Positions 4,215-16,345 of a stretch of 64,000 bases of DNA are shown here, one piece after another. Source of the DNA: Defluviitalea saccharophila (lineage in GTDB: Bacteria; Bacillota; Clostridia; Lachnospirales; Defluviitaleaceae); NCBI RefSeq assembly GCF_038396635.1, contig NZ_CP121687.1, positions 1,364,001 through 1,428,000 of the forward strand, in the 5' to 3' direction. Under the pieces are notes generated by a model. It saw nothing but the letters and a program-made list of their open reading frames with translations, had not been told where the DNA came from and searched no databases. The position numbers and the translations under genes are program-made. The first letter of the stretch is position 1; each line of letters starts with the position of its first letter.

Positions 4215-4435
4215 TACAAAAAAAACTCCATCTCCAATCAGAGACGAAGTTTATCCGCGGTTCCACTCTGTTAAAAGCTTTCGCTTTCAGCTCGAAGCAT
4301 GATAACGGTTGCCACCGTAATGGACTACTCTGTTTCATCCACACAGCTCCAGGATGCACTTCATTCTACTGCTCATATAAAATCGCTCTCAGCTTCTGCG
4401 ATTTCTCTCTGTAAAGGCAATAAAACTACTCTTCC
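4215..4435 (-). promoter_or_regulatory. T-box riboswitch, cysteine specifier, before cysE-cysS
   Basis: On the minus strand the conserved T-box GAGTGGAACCGCGG is present at about 4255-4270. It is followed by a terminator hairpin at about 4220-4252 whose arms CTTCGTCTC and GAGATGGAG end in a run of eight T. Further upstream, a stem I region contains a specifier-loop codon TGC followed by A (4356-4358), which reads cysteine and fits the downstream cysE-cysS genes. Uncharged tRNA-Cys would pair with both sites and allow read-through. The 5' limit of the leader is approximate. Confidence 0.9.
4220..4252 (-). terminator. T-box regulated intrinsic terminator
   Basis: The hairpin has arms of about 9 bp followed by a T-run directly after the T-box sequence, 30 bp before the cysE ribosome-binding site. 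It competes with the antiterminator that uses the T-box motif. Confidence 0.85.
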
Positions 4436-4472
4436 TATCATAGCCTTTGATTAATATTGGATTAAAATTATT

Positions 4473-6373: not shown

Positions 6374-6841
6374 TCATTGTATTAAACAAATCGCATGGGC
6401 AGAAATACCTTGTCCTTCTCCCGTAAAACCTAATCCCTCTTCCGTTGTTGCCTTGATGTTAATCTGATTGATACTGATATCTAAGGCCTCAGCAATATTT
6501 TTTCTCATTTTATCGATATAAGGAGCCATTTTGGGTTTTTGAGCAATAATCGTCGAATCTATATTTAAAATAGAAAATTTTTCTACAGCTAATACATTCT
6601 TTACTCTCTTTAATAACTCCAAACTGGATATGCCTTTATATTGTTCATCGGTGTCCGGAAAATGTTTCCCAATATCTCCCTTAGCCGCTGCCCCCAATAA
6701 GGCATCCATGATCGCATGCAGAAGTACATCTGCGTCTGAATGGCCCAATAAACCCTTCTCATAGGGAATTTTAACCCCGCCTATAATCAGTTCTCTGTCT
6801 TCTACCAATCTATGCACATCATAACCCATTCCTATTCTCAT
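6374..6841 (-). CDS. ispF: 2-C-methyl-D-erythritol 2,4-cyclodiphosphate synthase
   Basis: The MEP-pathway enzyme that forms the cyclic diphosphate during isoprenoid synthesis. The zinc ligands are in GMGYDVHRL (residues 8 and 10) and the second histidine region is [17 protein letters not shown]. The C-terminal region has [15 protein letters not shown], which lines the active site. At 155 residues the length is normal. A strong AAGGAGG precedes the ATG. It stands alone here, without ispD beside it. Confidence 0.97.
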
Positions 6842-6905
6842 TAAATAACCTCCTTATAATTTACTTTTCCCTTATTTATGTTGAAATAACATATTATATC
6901 ATTAG

Positions 6906-6934
6906 TTGACATTTTATTACAATTATTGTATACT
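6906..6934 (+). promoter_or_regulatory. Sigma-A promoter of the agr-like regulator
   Basis: TTGACA at 6906-6911 and TATACT at 6929-6934 with a 17 bp spacer, about 45 bp upstream of the regulator start. Confidence 0.7.
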
Positions 6935-6980
6935 TTAATAATTACTATCTGTGCTGCTACATATGGAAGGAGAGATTCTT

Positions 6981-7721
6981 TTGAAACCAAAAATTTTAAT
7001 TTATAATGATAGTCAGCTTCAACGACAAAATTTAATAGATTTCCTTACTGAGCTTAATATGCCAATGGAAATATATGAATCCGAAAATGAAGAAGATGTT
7101 TTAAAAAAGATTAAAGAGCAAAAGTTTGATGCTATGATTTCTGATATAATGATAAAAAAAGAACTGACAATCAATCTTATAAAAAAAATTAGAGAAACTT
7201 ATCCCTCTATCTATATAGTATTTGTATCCGCCTATAAAGATTTTATTATGGATGCTGTGGCAGAATGTCACTGTTATGATTATATCTCAAAACCCGTTAA
7301 TAAGGAAAGGTTTCAAGGTACAATGAAATTAATCCTGGAAAGAGTCCTGGAAGAAAACAGCATACATAAAGAGGAATCTAACCAAAAAAATCTTATCGTT
7401 AATTATAATAATCAGTCTTTTATCATTCCAATAGATAAAATCTTATTTATTGAACAATGCGGATATCTTTCCATTATTCATACCCTTGATGGAATCTATC
7501 GTTGTGTTTCTACTTTAATTCGTCTATACAATGAATTAAATGATGATTTTTTCTTAGCTCATAAGAGTTTTCTAGTAAATATTAAAAACGTCAGTCATGT
7601 CTCTTATAATAGAAGAACCTCCGGTGATATCTTTTTTGATCAATATGATAAAACTGCTCTTTTAAGTGTACGTAAAAAATCCGAGTTCAAAAAAGCACTA
7701 TTAAATTATAATAAACAATAG
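6981..7721 (+). CDS. LytTR-family response regulator (AgrA-like)
   Basis: Response regulator of 246 residues with an N-terminal receiver domain (phospho-acceptor Asp near residue 55 in MISDIM, conserved Lys in YISKPV near residue 105) and a C-terminal LytTR DNA-binding domain (about residues 135-240, with IDKILFIEQCGY and the RLYNELNDDFFLAHKSFLVN region). The start is taken as TTG at 6981 because AAGGAG lies 7 bases upstream; an ATG 10 codons earlier in frame has no comparable site. Placed before a GHKL kinase and an AgrD-like peptide gene, it is most likely the AgrA of a quorum-sensing system. Confidence 0.88.
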   Translation: MKPKILIYNDSQLQRQNLIDFLTELNMPMEIYESENEEDVLKKIKEQKFDAMISDIMIKKELTINLIKKIRETYPSIYIVFVSAYKDFIMDAVAECHCYDYISKPVNKERFQGTMKLILERVLEENSIHKEESNQKNLIVNYNNQSFIIPIDKILFIEQCGYLSIIHTLDGIYRCVSTLIRLYNELNDDFFLAHKSFLVNIKNVSHVSYNRRTSGDIFFDQYDKTALLSVRKKSEFKKALLNYNKQ

Positions 7722-7896
7722 TTTATATCTCTTTTCTTTCTTTTTATGATATTATAAAATAAGAAATACAATAAAACAAATTGATTAATGTTTTATAGAC
7801 AACTTTTGTCAAATAACAATAATCATTAATCAAATTTCTATTTTCATTTTTTTAGAAGTCTTTATAATGAAATTTATAAGAGTTAGGAGCGCTAGG

Positions 7897-9198
7897 ATGT
7901 TGATATTCTCTTTACTTCAGTATGTTGAAGGTTTCGCGATGTATTTAATTATCTCTACTTTATCAGGATTAAAAGGTAGAACCTCTTTACTAAAGATTCT
8001 TTATCTGTCTTTACTGCATGGAAGTGTTTATCTGATATTGAATGAGATTTTACCTATCCAGATACAAGGAATTATTTTACTGATCATATCGATTTTAATT
8101 AGCTCTTTAATATTAGAATTAGATTTTGTTTTATCGATATTGACTACCTTAATATCTGTACTAATTATATTGACAGTCGATCTTACTGTAAGTATGACGA
8201 CTTTAGGGATTTTGAATATTCCTATTTCTGATATAGTGAATAATCCATCTATGAGAACCTTATTAACTTTTATTGTTCAACTTACTTTCTTAATTATTGC
8301 TTTTGTAATTTATATGAAAAACATCACTCTTCCAAAGAAATACTTTATTAATAAAAAGATTAGCTTACTGATTTCTTCAATTTTCTTTGCTGTATGCATA
8401 TTTGCTTTCTTAGCATTTATTATAGGTACTTTTGTTGATGATTTTCAGCCTATTGTATATATTGCCCTGGTAATCATTTTTATATCTTTTTCATTGGTTA
8501 TGTATAAGCTCAATCAATACGTTGTTACCATGGCAGTAAAAGAAATGCAATTAGAAGATCAACGTATTTATATTGAATATATTAAAGAACTCATGAATCA
8601 TTTAAAGGCTCAAAGACATGAATTTATCAATCATATCAATGTATTATACGGCCTTGTTCAAATTAAAGATGTGTCACGTTTAGAAACAGCTAAAAGGTAT
8701 ATAGAAACTCTAAATATAACAATCCAAGGAACTTCAGATATCATGGCAACGGATGAGCCTGTTGTTTCAGGGCTTCTTGTTACGAAAACTGCCATAGCCG
8801 AACAAAAAAACATAGAAATGGATATTAACATCACCGATCGAATTACAGATACGCCATTATCTCTTACGGAAGTTTCTACAATACTCAATAATCTTATCAA
8901 TAATGCAATAGAGTTTTCAGAAACACTTCCTGAGAAAAATCGCTACATATGTATCGAAGTTTATGGTGATGAAAATAATGTATACATAGATATATGCAAC
9001 GAAAATAACGGACAAGCTATAACAGATACTGAAATCATCTTTGAAAAGGGCTTTTCGACTAAACCCAATCAAAAAGATTATAGAGGGTTTGGCTTATATA
9101 ATGTAAAAAGCATTATAGAAAAGCATCATGGTTCAATTGCTGTCGAGTCAGACTTACATGAAACTAGTTTTAAAGTCTCACTACCAAAGAAAAAATAA
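7897..9198 (+). CDS. AgrC-like sensor histidine kinase
   Basis: Membrane histidine kinase of 433 residues. About six hydrophobic segments fill the N-terminal half, as in AgrC peptide receptors. The dimerisation box is QRHEFINHINVL near residue 240, and the GHKL ATPase domain follows, with the N box in LNNLINNAIEFSE and GFGLYNVKSI as the G box. The ATG at 7897 is preferred because TTAGGAG precedes it; an upstream ATG at 7867 lacks one. It lies 15 bp before agrD and is the likely receptor for the modified peptide. Confidence 0.88.
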   Translation: MLIFSLLQYVEGFAMYLIISTLSGLKGRTSLLKILYLSLLHGSVYLILNEILPIQIQGIILLIISILISSLILELDFVLSILTTLISVLIILTVDLTVSMTTLGILNIPISDIVNNPSMRTLLTFIVQLTFLIIAFVIYMKNITLPKKYFINKKISLLISSIFFAVCIFAFLAFIIGTFVDDFQPIVYIALVIIFISFSLVMYKLNQYVVTMAVKEMQLEDQRIYIEYIKELMNHLKAQRHEFINHINVLYGLVQIKDVSRLETAKRYIETLNITIQGTSDIMATDEPVVSGLLVTKTAIAEQKNIEMDINITDRITDTPLSLTEVSTILNNLINNAIEFSETLPEKNRYICIEVYGDENNVYIDICNENNGQAITDTEIIFEKGFSTKPNQKDYRGFGLYNVKSIIEKHHGSIAVESDLHETSFKVSLPKKK

Positions 9199-9213
9199 AA
9201 AGGGGGTTTTTGC

Positions 9214-9345
9214 ATGAAAAAGAATATGCAGACACTATTAAAATGGATTGGAAGTGCTTCTCTCATTTTTGCTGTAGTATCTGCAACTCCTGCGTGCTTC
9301 CTACTTTGTTCTCAGCCTAAATGTCCAAAATCATTACAAAAATAA
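9214..9345 (+). CDS. agrD: AgrD-like cyclic lactone autoinducer precursor
   Basis: Peptide gene of 43 codons with a strong AGGGGG site before the ATG. The N-terminal half is an amphipathic/hydrophobic leader (LLKWIGSASLIFAVVS). It is followed by a candidate core CFLLC (residues 28-32) and a tail SQPKCPKSLQK that matches the xQPKxP recognition tail of clostridial AgrD. By analogy AgrB would cut after residue 32 and close a five-residue thiolactone from Cys28. It follows the kinase by 15 bp. Unusual points are the cysteine at the expected ring-closing position and another cysteine in the tail. Confidence 0.85.
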   Translation: MKKNMQTLLKWIGSASLIFAVVSATPACFLLCSQPKCPKSLQK

Positions 9346-9369
9346 CAGGTCTTTGACCTGTTATTTTTG
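9341..9369. terminator. Intrinsic terminator between agrD and agrB
   Basis: A perfect 11 bp stem with a 3-base loop (AATAACAGGTC arms) followed by TTTTGT. The stem begins inside the agrD stop region and can end both convergent transcripts. Confidence 0.85.
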
Positions 9370-9379
9370 TCTACTCTAT

Positions 9380-9949
9380 TCATTGATCCTTTAAAGTTTT
9401 TTCAATGAATAGCATATAAATGATTGTCAATGTCTCAATGAAGATCGCATTCATGCCTATGTATTTCCAAGGGCCAGATATTTTAAATAATATACATAGC
9501 CAAATAATAAATGTCCCTAGAGCTATAGTATGTATCTTTTTTCTTCTCTCCCTGCTAATAATAGGCTGGTTTTTATGTTCTGCGGGAGAAAACTTAAAGA
9601 TAATGCAAAATGAAAAAATGGCTTGAACGAAAAATATAATGTCATTTTGAATATTCAGCCCTGCAAAAACAGAGGTATATATTGCGCTTAGGCTAATTAT
9701 GAAACATTTAAAATAAGAGCTCGCATGATATCCCCCTGCCCATATTCTAAGTGAACTAAAGACAACCATTGCAAACAACCCAGACTTTAGATGCCCTGTT
9801 AAAAATAACAACATACATAAAAAAACTATCTTAACTGTCTCACTTATCAATGCTTGTAAGCCATATTGTATTTGTCTAATTTGTGTGTGACTAAAAAGTT
9901 GTTTCTTATAAATTTGATAGGATATTCCTGCTGCTAGTCTATCAATCAT
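9380..9949 (-). CDS. agrB: AgrB-like peptide-processing membrane protease
   Basis: Integral membrane cysteine endopeptidase of 189 residues that removes the AgrD tail and forms the thiolactone. The catalytic His is in RIWAGGYHA (residue 75) and the catalytic Cys in YFKCF (residue 82); the 7-residue spacing matches staphylococcal AgrB. Several hydrophobic segments surround them. AAGGAGG precedes the ATG. Unlike the usual agrBDCA operon, it is on the opposite strand and converges on agrD across a shared terminator, so its expression must be controlled separately. Confidence 0.92.
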   Translation of the reverse strand: MIDRLAAGISYQIYKKQLFSHTQIRQIQYGLQALISETVKIVFLCMLLFLTGHLKSGLFAMVVFSSLRIWAGGYHASSYFKCFIISLSAIYTSVFAGLNIQNDIIFFVQAIFSFCIIFKFSPAEHKNQPIISRERRKKIHTIALGTFIIWLCILFKISGPWKYIGMNAIFIETLTIIYMLFIEKTLKDQ

Positions 9950-10027
9950 ACGGAACCTCCTTCATAATTTATATTTTTATGTAATAATTTGAATTATATG
10001 TATATTATATATCAAAAAAAATAAAAA

Positions 10028-10055
10028 GACCAGTAAAAATTACTAATTACTGGTC
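10028..10055 (-). terminator. Terminator of the rRNA-tRNA operon
   Basis: Hairpin with GACCAGTAA arms followed on the minus strand by TTTTTATTTTTTTT, just after tRNA-Met, the last gene of the operon. Confidence 0.85.
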
Positions 10056-10067
10056 ATTTATTTTAAA

Positions 10068-10141
10068 TAGCGGAGGACGGAGTCGAACCGCCGACACTAC
10101 GGGTATGAACCGTATGCTCTAGCCATCTGAGCTACTCCGCC
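10068..10141 (-). tRNA. tRNA-Met (CAT)
   Basis: Full cloverleaf with acceptor GGCGGAG/CTCCGCT, T-loop GGTTCGACTCC and anticodon CAT in the loop TTCATAC. The first pair is G-U and the anticodon stem lacks three G-C pairs, so this is an elongator type, not the initiator. CAT could in principle be an Ile lysidine tRNA. CCA is not encoded. Confidence 0.93.
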
Positions 10142-10155
10142 ATATTAAATTGTGA

Positions 10156-10228
10156 TGGGCGCAATAGGGCTCGAACCTATGACCCCCTGCTTGTAAGGCA
10201 GGTGCTCTCCCAGCTGAGCTATGCGCCC
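10156..10228 (-). tRNA. tRNA-Val (TAC)
   Basis: Cloverleaf with acceptor GGGCGCA/TGCGCCC, anticodon loop CTTACAA and T-loop GGTTCGAGCCC. CCA is not encoded (TCA follows the discriminator base). Confidence 0.95.
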
Positions 10229-10247
10229 ACAATAATAATGGCAATAA

Positions 10248-10324
<77 letters not shown>

Positions 10325-10334
10325 GCGAAAAATA

Positions 10335-10410
10335 TGGCAGGGGCAGCAGGACTCGAACCCACGACATTCGGTTTTGGAGACCGACGTTCTACCAACTGAA
10401 CTATGCCCCT
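10335..10410 (-). tRNA. tRNA-Trp (CCA)
   Basis: Cloverleaf with acceptor AGGGGCA/TGCCCCT, anticodon CCA in loop TCTCCAAAA, discriminator G and an encoded 3' CCA. Confidence 0.95.
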
Positions 10411-10416
10411 ATGTAT

Positions 10417-10491
10417 TGGCTCCCCGAGTAGGATTCGAACCTACGACCCTCCGGTTAACAGCCGGATGCTCTACCGCTGAGCTATCGAGGA
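10417..10491 (-). tRNA. tRNA-Asn (GTT)
   Basis: Cloverleaf with acceptor TCCTCGA/TCGGGGA, anticodon loop CTGTTAA, discriminator G and an encoded CCA. It is the first tRNA after the 23S gene. Confidence 0.95.
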
Positions 10492-10837
10492 TTAGTCTTA
10501 CTCACTGCGTTCGTAAGCCTCAGAAGTTTTCTGCGAAAACTTCACATTCTTACTTCACTTAGTAAGTTTATTGTTGAGGATCTGCGCCCTCAAAACCAAA
10601 CACTGACTGCTAAAGTTTTTAGGTCAAGCCCTCGACCTATTAGTACTTATCAGCTGAACATGTTACCATGCTTTCACCTTAAGCCTATCTACCAGGTAGT
10701 CTTCCTGGGGTCTTACTAGCTTACGCTATGGGAAATCTTATCTTGAGGTGGGCTTCACACTTAGATGCCTTCAGCGTTTATCCCTTCCAAACTTGGCTAC
10801 TCTGCTATGCACTTGGTAGTACAACAGATACACCAGC

Positions 10838-10876
<39 letters not shown>

Positions 10877-10900
10877 CTCTCAAATTTCCTGCGCCCACGA

Positions 10901-10980
<80 letters not shown>

Positions 10981-10994
10981 AACCTGCTACAGCT

Positions 10995-11098
<104 letters not shown>

Positions 11099-11255
11099 GA
11101 TGGCAATCCCACTTTCATACCACCGGATCACTAAGTCCTACTTTCGTATCTGCTCCAGCCGTCGCTGTCGCAGTTAAGCAACCTTCTGCCTTTGCACTCT
11201 GCGAATGGTTTCCAACCATTCTGAGGTTACCTTTGAGCGCCTCCGTTACTCTTTC

Positions 11256-11296
<41 letters not shown>

Positions 11297-11538
11297 CCTA
11301 ATCTGGTTCACAGATTCAGGTTAGAAATCCAGTATCACAAGAGAGGTATCCCACCGGTGACTCCACCAAGACTGGCGTCCTGGCTTCTTAGTCTCCCTCC
11401 TATCCTGTACATGTAATACCGAATTCCAGTATCAAGCTGCAGTAAAGCTCCACGGGGTCTTTCCGTCCTGTCGCGGGTAACCGGCATCTTCACCGGTACT
11501 ACAATTTCACCGGGCGCGTTGTCGAGACAGTGCCCAAA

Positions 11539-11633
<95 letters not shown>

Positions 11634-12305
11634 GTTCAAAGCTTCGGATTTCTCCTAACCTCTCCCCTTAACCTTCCAGCACCGGGCAGGCGTCAGCCCC
11701 TATACTTCACCTTTCGGTTTAGCAGAGACCTGTGTTTTTGCTAAACAGTCGCTTGGGCCTATTCTCTGCGGCCTGTATTTCTACAGGCACCCCTTCTCCC
11801 GAAGTTACGGGGTCATTTTGCCGAGTTCCTTAACAACGCTTCTCCCGTCGGCCTTAGGATTCTCTCCTCATCCACCTGTGTCGGTTTACGGTACGGGTAC
11901 TAATAAAACTATAGCGGCTTTTCTCGGCAGTGTGGATTCAACAGCTTCCCTACTTTAATTTCGGTCCTTATAACACTTCACCATCACCTGACGGATTTGC
12001 CTGTCAGGCTTGGCTTTGTGCTTAACCGGGTCTTTCCATTCCCCGGTCTGTCTATCCTCCTGCGTCCCCACAGTTCTGTTTATTAGCAGTACAGGAATTT
12101 CAACCTGTTGTCCATCGGCTACGGCTTTCGCCCTCACCTTAGGTCCCGACTTACCCAGAGCAGATCAGCTTTACTCTGGAAACCTTGGATATTCGGCCAA
12201 GAAGATTCTCACTTCTTTCTCGCTACTCATTCCGGCATTCTCTCTTCCTATAACTCCACTGCTCCTTTCGGTACAGCTTCTACACTATAGGAATGCTCCT
12301 CTACC

Positions 12306-12735
12306 AATTTAGAGATTAGAAGGCAGACGTTAGAGGTTTGAACTATTTACTCCCAGTTCTTCTCTAAGTTGTATATCATCCCACCTAGCATATTATATCG
12401 TTCTGAGTATTCTTTATACTCTTCTTCAGTTATATAACCTAAGTCTTTTACAAAACTTATCAACACTAACATTTCATTTGTTGAGCCTAAAGATATTTTA
12501 AGAAATCTCTTAAAATCTTTTGCTGAACTTTTCTTTCCATAACCTTCTGCTATATTTAATGGTATGGACAATGCAGCCCTTCTCATTTGACTACTTATCT
12601 CATAGGTCTCTTCTTTAGGAAATGTTTGCGTCATTTTGTGTATACTTAATGCTAGTTTATAAGAAAGCTGATATACTTCTAAATCTTTATAAGATTTTAT
12701 CACCCTTCTAACTTCTCCCTTCTAACCTCTAAATT
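12306..12735 (-). other. 23S rRNA intervening sequence (IVS) in helix 45
   Basis: A 430 bp insertion bounded by an 18 bp inverted repeat (12306-12323 and 12718-12735), complementary throughout with a single G-U pair, so it closes a long stem in the rRNA. The rRNA flanks GAAGCTATGG and GGTAGAGGAGC match the two sides of helix 45, around E. coli position 1170, a classic IVS site. The interior is AT-rich, unlike the surrounding rRNA, and holds a gene for an IVS-type four-helix-bundle protein. In other bacteria RNase III removes such inserts, leaving fragmented but functional 23S rRNA. Confidence 0.93.
12347..12703 (-). CDS. Four-helix-bundle IVS protein
   Basis: Protein of 118 residues with the hallmarks of the 23S rRNA intervening-sequence protein family: an N-terminal YKDLEVYQLSYKLAL helix, then RRAALSIPLNIAEGYG and FLKISLGSTNEM, and a C-terminal helix ending in LEKNW. 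The family folds as a four-helix bundle and forms oligomeric rings in known structures, but its function is unknown. It is read in the same direction as the 23S rRNA and lies wholly inside the IVS. The start is GTG, with a GGGAG/AGAAGG purine-rich stretch just upstream, next to the base of the IVS stem. Confidence 0.93.
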   Translation of the reverse strand: MIKSYKDLEVYQLSYKLALSIHKMTQTFPKEETYEISSQMRRAALSIPLNIAEGYGKKSSAKDFKRFLKISLGSTNEMLVLISFVKDLGYITEEEYKEYSERYNMLGGMIYNLEKNWE

Positions 12736-13934
12736 CCATAGCTTCGGTGTCGTGTTTTAGCCCCGGACATTTTCGGCGCAGGATCTCTCGACTAGTGAGC
12801 TATTACGCACTCTTTGAATGTATGGCTGCTTCTAAGCCAACATCCTAGTTGTCTCTGAAATCCCACATCCTTTTCCACTTAACACGTACTTTGGGACCTT
12901 AGCTGATGGTCTGGGCTCTTTCCCTTTTGACCATGAAACTTATCTCTCATAGTCTGACTCCTGACGGTACCTATGCGGCATTCTTAGTTTGATATGCTTC
13001 GGTAAGCTTGTTGGCCCCCTAGGCAATTCAGTGCTTTACCTCCGCTAGGCTCACATCAAGGCTAGCCCTAAAGCTATTTCGAGGAGAACCAGCTATCTCC
13101 GGGTTCGATTGGAATTTCTCCCCTACCCACAGTTCATCCCCACGTTTTTCAACACGTGTGAGTTCGGACCTCCATCACCTTTTACGGTGACTTCATCCTG
13201 ACCATGGGTAGATCACCCGGTTTCGGGTCTACTAATACCAACTATTATCGCCCTTTTAAGACTTGGTTTCCCTTCGGCTTCGTGCCTTTGGCACTTAACC
13301 TTGCTGGCATCAGTAACTCGCCGGACCGTTCTACAAAAAGTACGCGGTCGACCTTTAACGGTCTTCCACTGCTTGTAAACATAGGGTTTCAGGTTCTTTT
13401 TCACTCCCCTCCCGGGGTTCTTTTCACCTTTCCTTCACAGTACTATGCGCTATCGGTCACCAAGGAGTATTTAGCCTTGGGGGGTGGTCCCCCCTGCTTC
13501 CCACAAGGTTTCTCGTGTCTCGTGGTACTCTGGATACTGCCGGCGTTTTTTAGATTTTGTCTACAGGACTTTCACCTTCTTTGGTGTGCTTTTCCAAAAC
13601 ACTTCGACTATCCTTAAAACTACCTTTCGCAGTCCACAACCCCAGATTGCACGCAATCTGGTTTGGGCTCTTTCCCTTTCGCTCGCCACTACTTAGGAAA
13701 TCGATGTTTCTTTCTCCTCCTGCAGGTACTTAGATGTTTCAGTTCCCTGCGTTCCCTCTATTAGACTATGGATTCATCTAATAGTGACTTGGGTTCGCCA
13801 AGTCGGGTTTCCCCATTCGGACATCTCTGGATCAACGGCTGTTTGCGCCTACCCAAAGCTTTTCGCAGCTTACCGCGTCCTTCTTCGGCTCTTGGTGCCA
13901 AGGCATCCACCCTATGCTCTTATTAGCTTGACCT

Positions 13935-14250
13935 AAGTAAAAAATGTTTGCATTTTTTGCTTAGGTCATGAGAACTTTTCGATACACAAGCTCCCTACCC
14001 TTACGTCAAATACAGCAAAGCTGTATTTGCGAAACTATCAATTTTCAAATCCTTACAAGTAAGTTTGAAAATTTCCGTTTCAAAAGTTCGAATGGTAGCC
14101 ATGAGCTTGGCTCTTAAATTCATCATGCCTTTGCAAGAATGTTTACTTTAGCTTCTTTCAGTGTTTAGTTTTCAAGGTGCAGATGTTTGTTACAACAGCT
14201 TTGACATCTTATCATATTTTATGACTGATGTCAAGGTGTTTTTTGTTTCT
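13935..14250 (-). other. tRNA-Ala to 23S spacer with processing stems
   Basis: No protein gene is seen here. Next to the 23S 5' end lies a hairpin with arms GACCTAAG and CTTAGGTC (about 13930-13967). Around 14160-14180 the minus strand carries CCTTGAAAACTAAACACTG, a leader-like sequence also seen in similar form upstream of 16S and complementary to the region after 23S (CAGTGTTTGGTTTTGAGGG). This is probably the RNase III processing stem of pre-23S. A promoter-like sequence lies at 14206-14234. Confidence 0.6.
14206..14234 (-). promoter_or_regulatory. Promoter-like sequence upstream of 23S
   Basis: TTGACA at 14229-14234 and TAAGAT at 14206-14211 with a 17 bp spacer, between tRNA-Ala and 23S on the rRNA strand. 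The match is nearly as good as that of the two promoters upstream of 16S, so 23S and the tRNA cluster might also be transcribed independently. Confidence 0.55.
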
Positions 14251-14326
14251 TGGTGGAGACGACGAGATTCGAACTCGTGACCCCCTGCTTGCAAGGCAGG
14301 TGCTCTCCCAACTGAGCTACGCCCCC
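14251..14326 (-). tRNA. tRNA-Ala (TGC)
   Basis: Cloverleaf with acceptor GGGGGCG/CGTCTCC (two G-U pairs), anticodon loop CTTGCAA, T-loop GAGTTCGAATCTC and an encoded CCA. It lies between 5S and 23S. Confidence 0.95.
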
Positions 14327-14340
14327 ATGGTGAAGTTTGA

Positions 14341-14458
14341 CGCCAGAAGTTCGAGGTAAGATAAAAACTTACCATTTCTTCTGTTTTAACTTCTATATTT
14401 ATATTCAAGAGGTAATCAAGATTTTTCCAACCTCTAACCTCTATCTTCTAATTTCAAT
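14341..14458. repeat. IVS-like remnant between 5S and tRNA-Ala
   Basis: An AT-rich spacer whose ends form an imperfect inverted repeat: AGAAGTTCGAGGTAAGA at the left and, on the other strand, AGAAGATAGAGGTTAGA at the right (14 of 17 identical). The right end shares TAGAGGTTAGA-type sequence with the ends of the 23S IVS. There is no gene inside. This may be a decayed or non-coding relative of the IVS element. Confidence 0.4.
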
Positions 14459-14575
14459 TCTGGCAGCCACCTACTCTCCCAGGCAGTCTCCCGCCAAGTA
14501 CCATCGGCCGTCTATGGCTTAACCATCATGTTCGGTATGGGTATGGGTGTTTCCCATAGACGCATCGCCACCAGA
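14459..14575 (-). rRNA. 5S ribosomal RNA
   Basis: A 117 nt gene starting TCTGGTGGCGA and ending GTGGCTGCCAGA, with the terminal stem closed by TCTGG/CCAGA and the conserved CATACCGAACATG in loop C. It lies between 16S and tRNA-Ala, not after 23S as in the standard operon. Confidence 0.95.
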
Positions 14576-14678
14576 AATTTTATAGAGTTTATGTACAGTT
14601 TTGAAACAAAACTGTTAAATAACAAAGATTTTAGTCTTTGTTATCAATCTCTCAAGACTAAACAGCACAGACTCATTT

Positions 14679-16207
<1,529 letters not shown>

Positions 16208-16345
16208 ATAATCCTTGCCAGTTTACTGGCTATCTTTTAATTCTTCAATCAATGGAATTGATTGGGTTGTTTTTTGGTTTGTGCTGTTTAGTTTTCAAAG
16301 ATCGATGCTTTGTCGCAAAATCACTTCATTTTGACGACAAAATGT

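Follow-up and report, generated by a model that had tools for sequence, protein, structure and literature searches.

The agr locus of Defluviitalea saccharophila

The window analysed here is a stretch of 64,000 bp from the 3.01 Mb genome of Defluviitalea saccharophila (contig NZ_CP121687.1, positions 1,364,001 to 1,428,000), and the subject of this study is the agr-type quorum-sensing locus that it contains. The locus comprises four genes, of which agrA, agrC and agrD are read rightward, whereas agrB is read leftward and converges on them, with one hairpin between:

6981..7721, + strand: agrA, LytTR response regulator with a TTG start (PF00072, 58.6 bits; PF04397, 57.5 bits)
7897..9198, + strand: agrC, sensor kinase (PF14501, 63.9 bits; PF14689, 39.3 bits; the longest open reading frame (ORF) begins at 7867)
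9214..9345, + strand: agrD, propeptide of 43 aa (TIGR04223, 38.7 bits; cut-off 19)
9380..9949, − strand: agrB, propeptide peptidase (PF04647, 113.1 bits; cut-off 23)

AgrC combined the HATPase_c_5 and SPOB_a domains and AgrA the Response_reg and LytTR domains, all above the curated cut-offs, and the domain searches recovered an AgrB-family peptidase, an AgrD-family propeptide and an AgrC/LytTR pair. Judged by these families, the locus is a complete agr-type cyclic-peptide system, for which a secreted peptide and its activation of AgrC are predicted. The genes and strands agree with those given in a preliminary description of this DNA, which had also placed His75 and Cys82 in AgrB; both residues, which we take to be the catalytic positions, were invariant in the five aligned sequences.

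The true start of agrC is probably at 7897 and not at the ATG at 7867, because the latter overlaps a TATAAT element aligned in all six loci compared (the window and five relatives) and because the ribosome site GTTAGGAG (GTAAGGAG in L047) immediately precedes 7897. By analogy with a Listeria peptide, and on an alignment of AgrD sequences that we presume to hold, the AgrD signal is predicted to be a five-residue thiolactone ring, Cys-Phe-Leu-Leu-Cys, followed by SQPKCPKSLQK. The corresponding ring positions in four relatives read CFLLA, CFLFA, CFIFL and CFIIC. The Listeria peptide is a CFMFV thiolactone (PMC4916163; this and the other published systems are cited from excerpts of the respective articles).

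The hairpin between agrD and agrB (9336..9370, 16 pairs on either strand) is the probable terminator for both genes. Its folding energy was −20.1 kcal/mol on the + strand (z −9.5) and −20.7 kcal/mol on the − strand (z −7.3), and its core AACAGGT..ACCTGTT was kept in six of six loci despite differing surroundings. It should be noted that the consensus scan recognised a terminator here for the − strand alone, because the U-run on the + strand falls within the stem. The terminator shared by agrD and agrB, as proposed earlier, thus stands as a conserved hairpin that likely ends both transcripts, although the scan bears this out for agrB alone.

Conservation and origin of the layout

The gene order of relatives, a comparison proposed in the preliminary description, was surveyed in 295 genomes of the order, in which 131 AgrD places were matched against at least 150 AgrB places. 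Each AgrD was paired with the nearest AgrB at a distance of no more than 5 kb; one AgrB may pair with two AgrDs (as at G099), close relatives were counted separately, and all counts refer to the matches listed. Read in the direction of agrA, the layout of the window (A>C>D> <B) was found in six of the eight same-family genomes with matches (G000, G062, G001, G002, G003 and G005), family members without any match possibly being among the unlisted genomes. G004 and G006 had only the other arrangement, of the A>C> <D<B type, and G003 had both; L035/G062, L036/G002 and L037/G003 were taken as the same contigs and counted once. Among the relatives that carry this locus are contigs labelled Defluviitalea phaphyphila Alg1 and metagenome-assembled genomes of Candidatus Epulonipiscium sp. 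The layout was kept across three genera, along with the hairpin and a direct repeat upstream of agrC that is described below, and ispF flanked agrA in all six loci. The ratio of nonsynonymous to synonymous substitution rates (dN/dS) was 0.06–0.28 for agrA, agrC, agrD and agrB over 16 comparisons against four genomes, which include one from the same species but not G005 (agrA 0.06–0.27 and agrB 0.08–0.17, four comparisons each). In these four relatives, purifying selection acts on all four agr genes.

An AgrB was found within 5 kb of 119 AgrDs, and 12 AgrDs were without one. The 119 pairs comprised 53 on the same strand in the order B-then-D, 46 on the same strand in the order D-then-B and 20 on opposite strands, 9 of these being convergent and 11 divergent; opposite-strand agrB and agrD are thus a recurrent minority and not unique to the window. 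The nine convergent pairs were six of this family and three of genus g45. The earlier view of agrBDCA as the standard arrangement is not supported in this order, in which D-then-B pairs almost equal B-then-D pairs in number, nor by published systems. In Staphylococcus aureus, the four genes are transcribed as a single polycistronic message, in the order BDCA (PMC3673130). The window does not form such a co-directional four-gene operon: it shares with S. aureus the four protein families, the predicted chemistry and a LytTR regulator with direct repeats, but its agrB lies on the − strand and its agrA has a promoter candidate of its own. C. difficile agr2 is agrACDB, for which the authors suggest a single transcript (PMC3754575); the order A-C-D-B is shared with the window, in which, however, agrB occupies the other strand. 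For clostridia, agrBD and agrCA have been described as distinct operons (PMC12312760), and the agr of Clostridium acetobutylicum is split into agrBD and agrCA units (as cited in PMC3754575). The latter resembles the window in being split; its B, however, stays with D, whereas in the window D goes with C. An AgrD without agrB in its operon is known from C. autoethanogenum system 2 (PMC8748961) and C. thermocellum Clo1313_2818 (PMC5322536), but no neighbouring agrB is reported in the excerpts on either, whereas that of the window is adjacent and convergent. No published opposite-strand agrB/agrD was recognised in a search outside which most subscription papers lay, and absence from print is not claimed.

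Phylogenetic analysis of AgrB was based on 29 of the 36 rows drawn up (L021, L026, L027, L028, L029, L030 and L033 were dropped, and the near-identical L048 of G062 and L050 of G130 were left out), with a midpoint root used for drawing only. A single clade for both convergent groups was rejected (p-AU 0.0005, approximately unbiased test), the grouping having been chosen after a first tree was viewed; the convergent arrangement of g45 thus appears to be independent of that of the window type. The AgrB clade of the window (support 99/97) joined the same-strand AgrBs L010, L011, L012, L013, L023 and L034 (support 98/97), whose loci (L099–L104) read A>C> <D<B in six of six cases; the kinases were checked against Pfam in four of these loci, agrD of L102 and L103 was placed from the listed matches, and L103 has a short agrA ORF. 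The same six loci gave the six best matches to AgrC and AgrA of the window among 20 loci compared, some of them short and perhaps incomplete. They therefore resemble the window in gene order, in having the nearest AgrB clade and in their AgrA and AgrC, but differ from it in that agrD lies on the agrB strand and, in four of the six, in a repeat upstream of agrB rather than agrC. Since the nearest AgrB clade shares the order and differs only in the strand of agrD, it would be agrD, not agrB, that changed strand, and the same-strand state of D and B is taken as the older one because 99 of the 119 pairs share a strand. The layout of the window thus probably arose from A>C> <D<B through an in-place switch of agrD to the other strand, as the direction of change is read from these sequences. 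The preliminary description had treated agrB as the displaced gene; this is probably the reverse of what happened, as agrB of the nearest clade is also convergent to agrAC.

Candidate control elements

The following candidate elements lie in and beside the locus:

6906..6934, + strand: agrA promoter candidate TTGACA-17-TATACT (11/12 consensus matches)
7805..7835, + strand: candidate AgrA box, two 10-bp direct repeats with a period of 21 bp (five-species comparison)
7841..7868, + strand: agrC-agrD promoter candidate TTTTCA-16-TATAAT (10/12; TATAAT aligned in six of six loci)
10010..10066, − strand: terminator-like hairpin separating agrB from the tRNA cluster (−16.0 kcal/mol, z −5.3)

The agrA promoter candidate was the top one of 24 promoter-like sites in 6700–10600 and was aligned in six of six loci, with single-base differences in three. 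The candidate box consists of the repeats TTTGTCAAAT and TTAATCAAAT, located between agrA and agrC. Averaged over five species (L048 being left out), this 21-bp-period repeat upstream of agrC ranked first among 5439 window pairs, and none of 300 column shuffles was as good; the stretches compared were anchored on the repeat first picked by eye. This comparison is a better test than the box matrix, which is circular for positive results, its training set being the very sites scored. The same 21-bp spacing is found in the C. difficile RgaR site, with a critical G at −51 and −72 (PMC10602386), and direct repeats in front of its own operon are the site of action of the S. aureus LytTR regulator (PMC4227749). 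With an 11-bp spacer and no more than two mismatches, the box pattern occurred at 10 places in the window genome versus 4 for the reversed control, and its sole match without mismatch was at the agrC promoter. The four other sites whose surroundings were inspected, in three genomes, all lay within ORFs, and we make no claim for or against a wider regulon.

Neither upstream of agrA, for which the window was the only locus tested, nor, with the box matrix, upstream of agrB in five of the six loci was a box found. The sole AgrA-type repeat found thus lies on the agrC-agrD side, and feedback would not be expected to raise AgrB together with AgrD, in agreement with the preliminary description; separate transcription of agrB and agrD, which it also stated, follows necessarily from their opposite strands. 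Among the A>C> <D<B loci, a 21-bp-period direct repeat was found upstream of agrB(D) in four of six (shuffle fraction ≤0.007; L103 and L104 had weaker fractions of 0.357 and 0.050, respectively), and direct repeats upstream of agrA were found in none of four. In the convergent lineage of g45, a 22-bp-period direct repeat was found upstream of agrD alone (12/12 and 11/12 in the two loci tested), with no significant repeat upstream of agrB in these loci. The candidate feedback box thus appears to track the agrD transcript in three layouts.

The agrB start lies 117 bp downstream of a tRNA cluster, which is itself preceded by a whole rRNA operon read from the same strand. Complete or as its 3′ part, tRNA-Met was found upstream of agrB in five of the six loci; in L048 (G062, 1–222), no tRNA-Met occurs within the 222 bases upstream of agrB, where the contig ends. 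The rRNA operon of the window (10067–16208, − strand) contains 16S, 5S, tRNA-Ala and 23S, then five tRNAs, so that the 5S gene is located between 16S and 23S and not after 23S. The match to 23S is about 390 bases longer than the model, and an ORF of 118 aa (12347–12703, − strand) lies inside the gene on the same strand; its product presumably resembles the four-helix-bundle proteins of 23S intervening sequences. A T-box leader was detected at 4237–4450 (− strand, 114 bits).

Proposed circuit and alternative readings

It is proposed, with a probability of roughly two in three, that agrD is carried on the receptor transcript (agrC-agrD), that agrB forms a separate convergent unit, that feedback acts on agrC-agrD, and that this layout arose by a flip of agrD. 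AgrB would cut AgrD and cyclise it into the five-residue thiolactone (predicted ring CFLLC), and the peptide would activate AgrC, which would phosphorylate AgrA. AgrA would then bind the 21-bp-period repeat upstream of agrC and raise agrC and agrD together, while AgrA itself (near-consensus promoter) and AgrB (no box found) would remain outside the loop. In S. aureus, the single BDCA message implies that feedback raises all four genes; here, because the candidate box is on the agrD transcript, feedback should raise the receptor and the propeptide, not AgrA or AgrB. A broader suggestion, to which we give a little less than an even chance, is that within this order the AgrA box tracks the propeptide gene while its operon partner is swappable, in which case the flip of agrD would have moved feedback from enzyme plus signal to receptor plus signal and left AgrB constitutive.

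Several observations weigh against the proposed circuit, the first of them concerning the box. In the window alone, the repeat scored 9/12, no better than shuffles (fraction 0.587), so that its support comes from the comparison between species, in which the repeat itself served as anchor. The best repeats of the A>C> <D<B loci stood at differing distances (−93 to −142), L101 having a different motif. No significant repeat was found in six further opposite-strand loci (L052, L053, L054, L057, L058 and L059), so that the association of box and agrD is a pattern seen in three lineages rather than a general rule. The promoter-like sites in 6700–10600 were not in excess, 24 having been found versus 21.3 (sd 4.3) in shuffles. 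In G005, agrA and agrC (L047, 3453–5669) align in more than one frame, and the system may there be broken or badly assembled; agrB and agrD each align in one piece. An alternative is a neutral rearrangement without regulatory meaning in which agr gene order drifts freely, and the variety of orders and strands among the 119 pairs would fit it. We consider it unlikely, however, since the layout was kept in three genera with its hairpin and repeat and since, in each of three layouts, the repeat lies on the transcript with agrD.

The remaining difficulties concern the expression of agrB. No promoter-like site of at least 9/12 was listed upstream of the agrB start on its strand, and in G002 the region upstream of agrB scored 10.9 for the box (shuffle fraction 0.015), which may be a weak site. 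Readthrough from the adjoining rRNA and tRNA genes, such a weak AgrA site or post-transcriptional coupling could still co-regulate agrB with agrD, so that the strand split would have no consequence for the circuit. The short distance to the tRNA cluster and its recurrence in relatives speak for this, whereas in five of the six loci no box was found there and the hairpin with a T-run at 10010..10066 separates the tRNAs from agrB. This hairpin was not called by the consensus scan; a comparable stem and T-run was seen by eye in four of the five relatives. Because of this intervening hairpin, readthrough from the rRNA operon is ranked as a rival for driving agrB, and co-regulation as a whole seems quite unlikely. 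The preferred reading is that agrB is transcribed from a weak promoter of its own, and an A+T-rich stretch, ATATACAT, is kept between the tRNAs and the agrB start in six of six loci.

The last point is whether this AgrB serves this AgrD, since the window genome has three other AgrBs (L060, L061 and L062) that could also process the AgrD of the locus. Each has a same-strand AgrD-like ORF nearby; two of the three ORFs score below the AgrD family cut-off, and in that by L062 Ser apparently replaces the ring Cys. That another AgrB matures the AgrD of the locus, the agrB beside it being a bystander or serving another propeptide, has a parallel in C. autoethanogenum, where a single AgrB has been proposed to act on two AgrDs (PMC8748961), but is improbable given the adjacency of agrB and agrD in six of six loci, the purifying selection on both genes in the four relatives tested and the single AgrB found by PF04647 in G005 (98% complete, 10/10 candidates scored) and G002 (78% complete, 8/8 candidates scored), the only AgrB known to be available to the AgrD of the locus there, although G002 is the less complete and G005 seems to have broken agrA and agrC genes. 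In G062, one AgrB was found among the 10 of 13 candidates scored.

Explanations of how agr acts as a switch rely centrally on positive feedback to the genes that make the signal. If the broader suggestion above is true, signal output in this family would be capped by a fixed amount of AgrB while sensitivity rises, in a circuit unlike that of S. aureus. A family with the maturation enzyme outside the loop, set against relatives of the same gene order that seemingly keep the enzyme inside it, would offer a natural comparison of two wirings, which bears on the threshold and bistability of agr systems.

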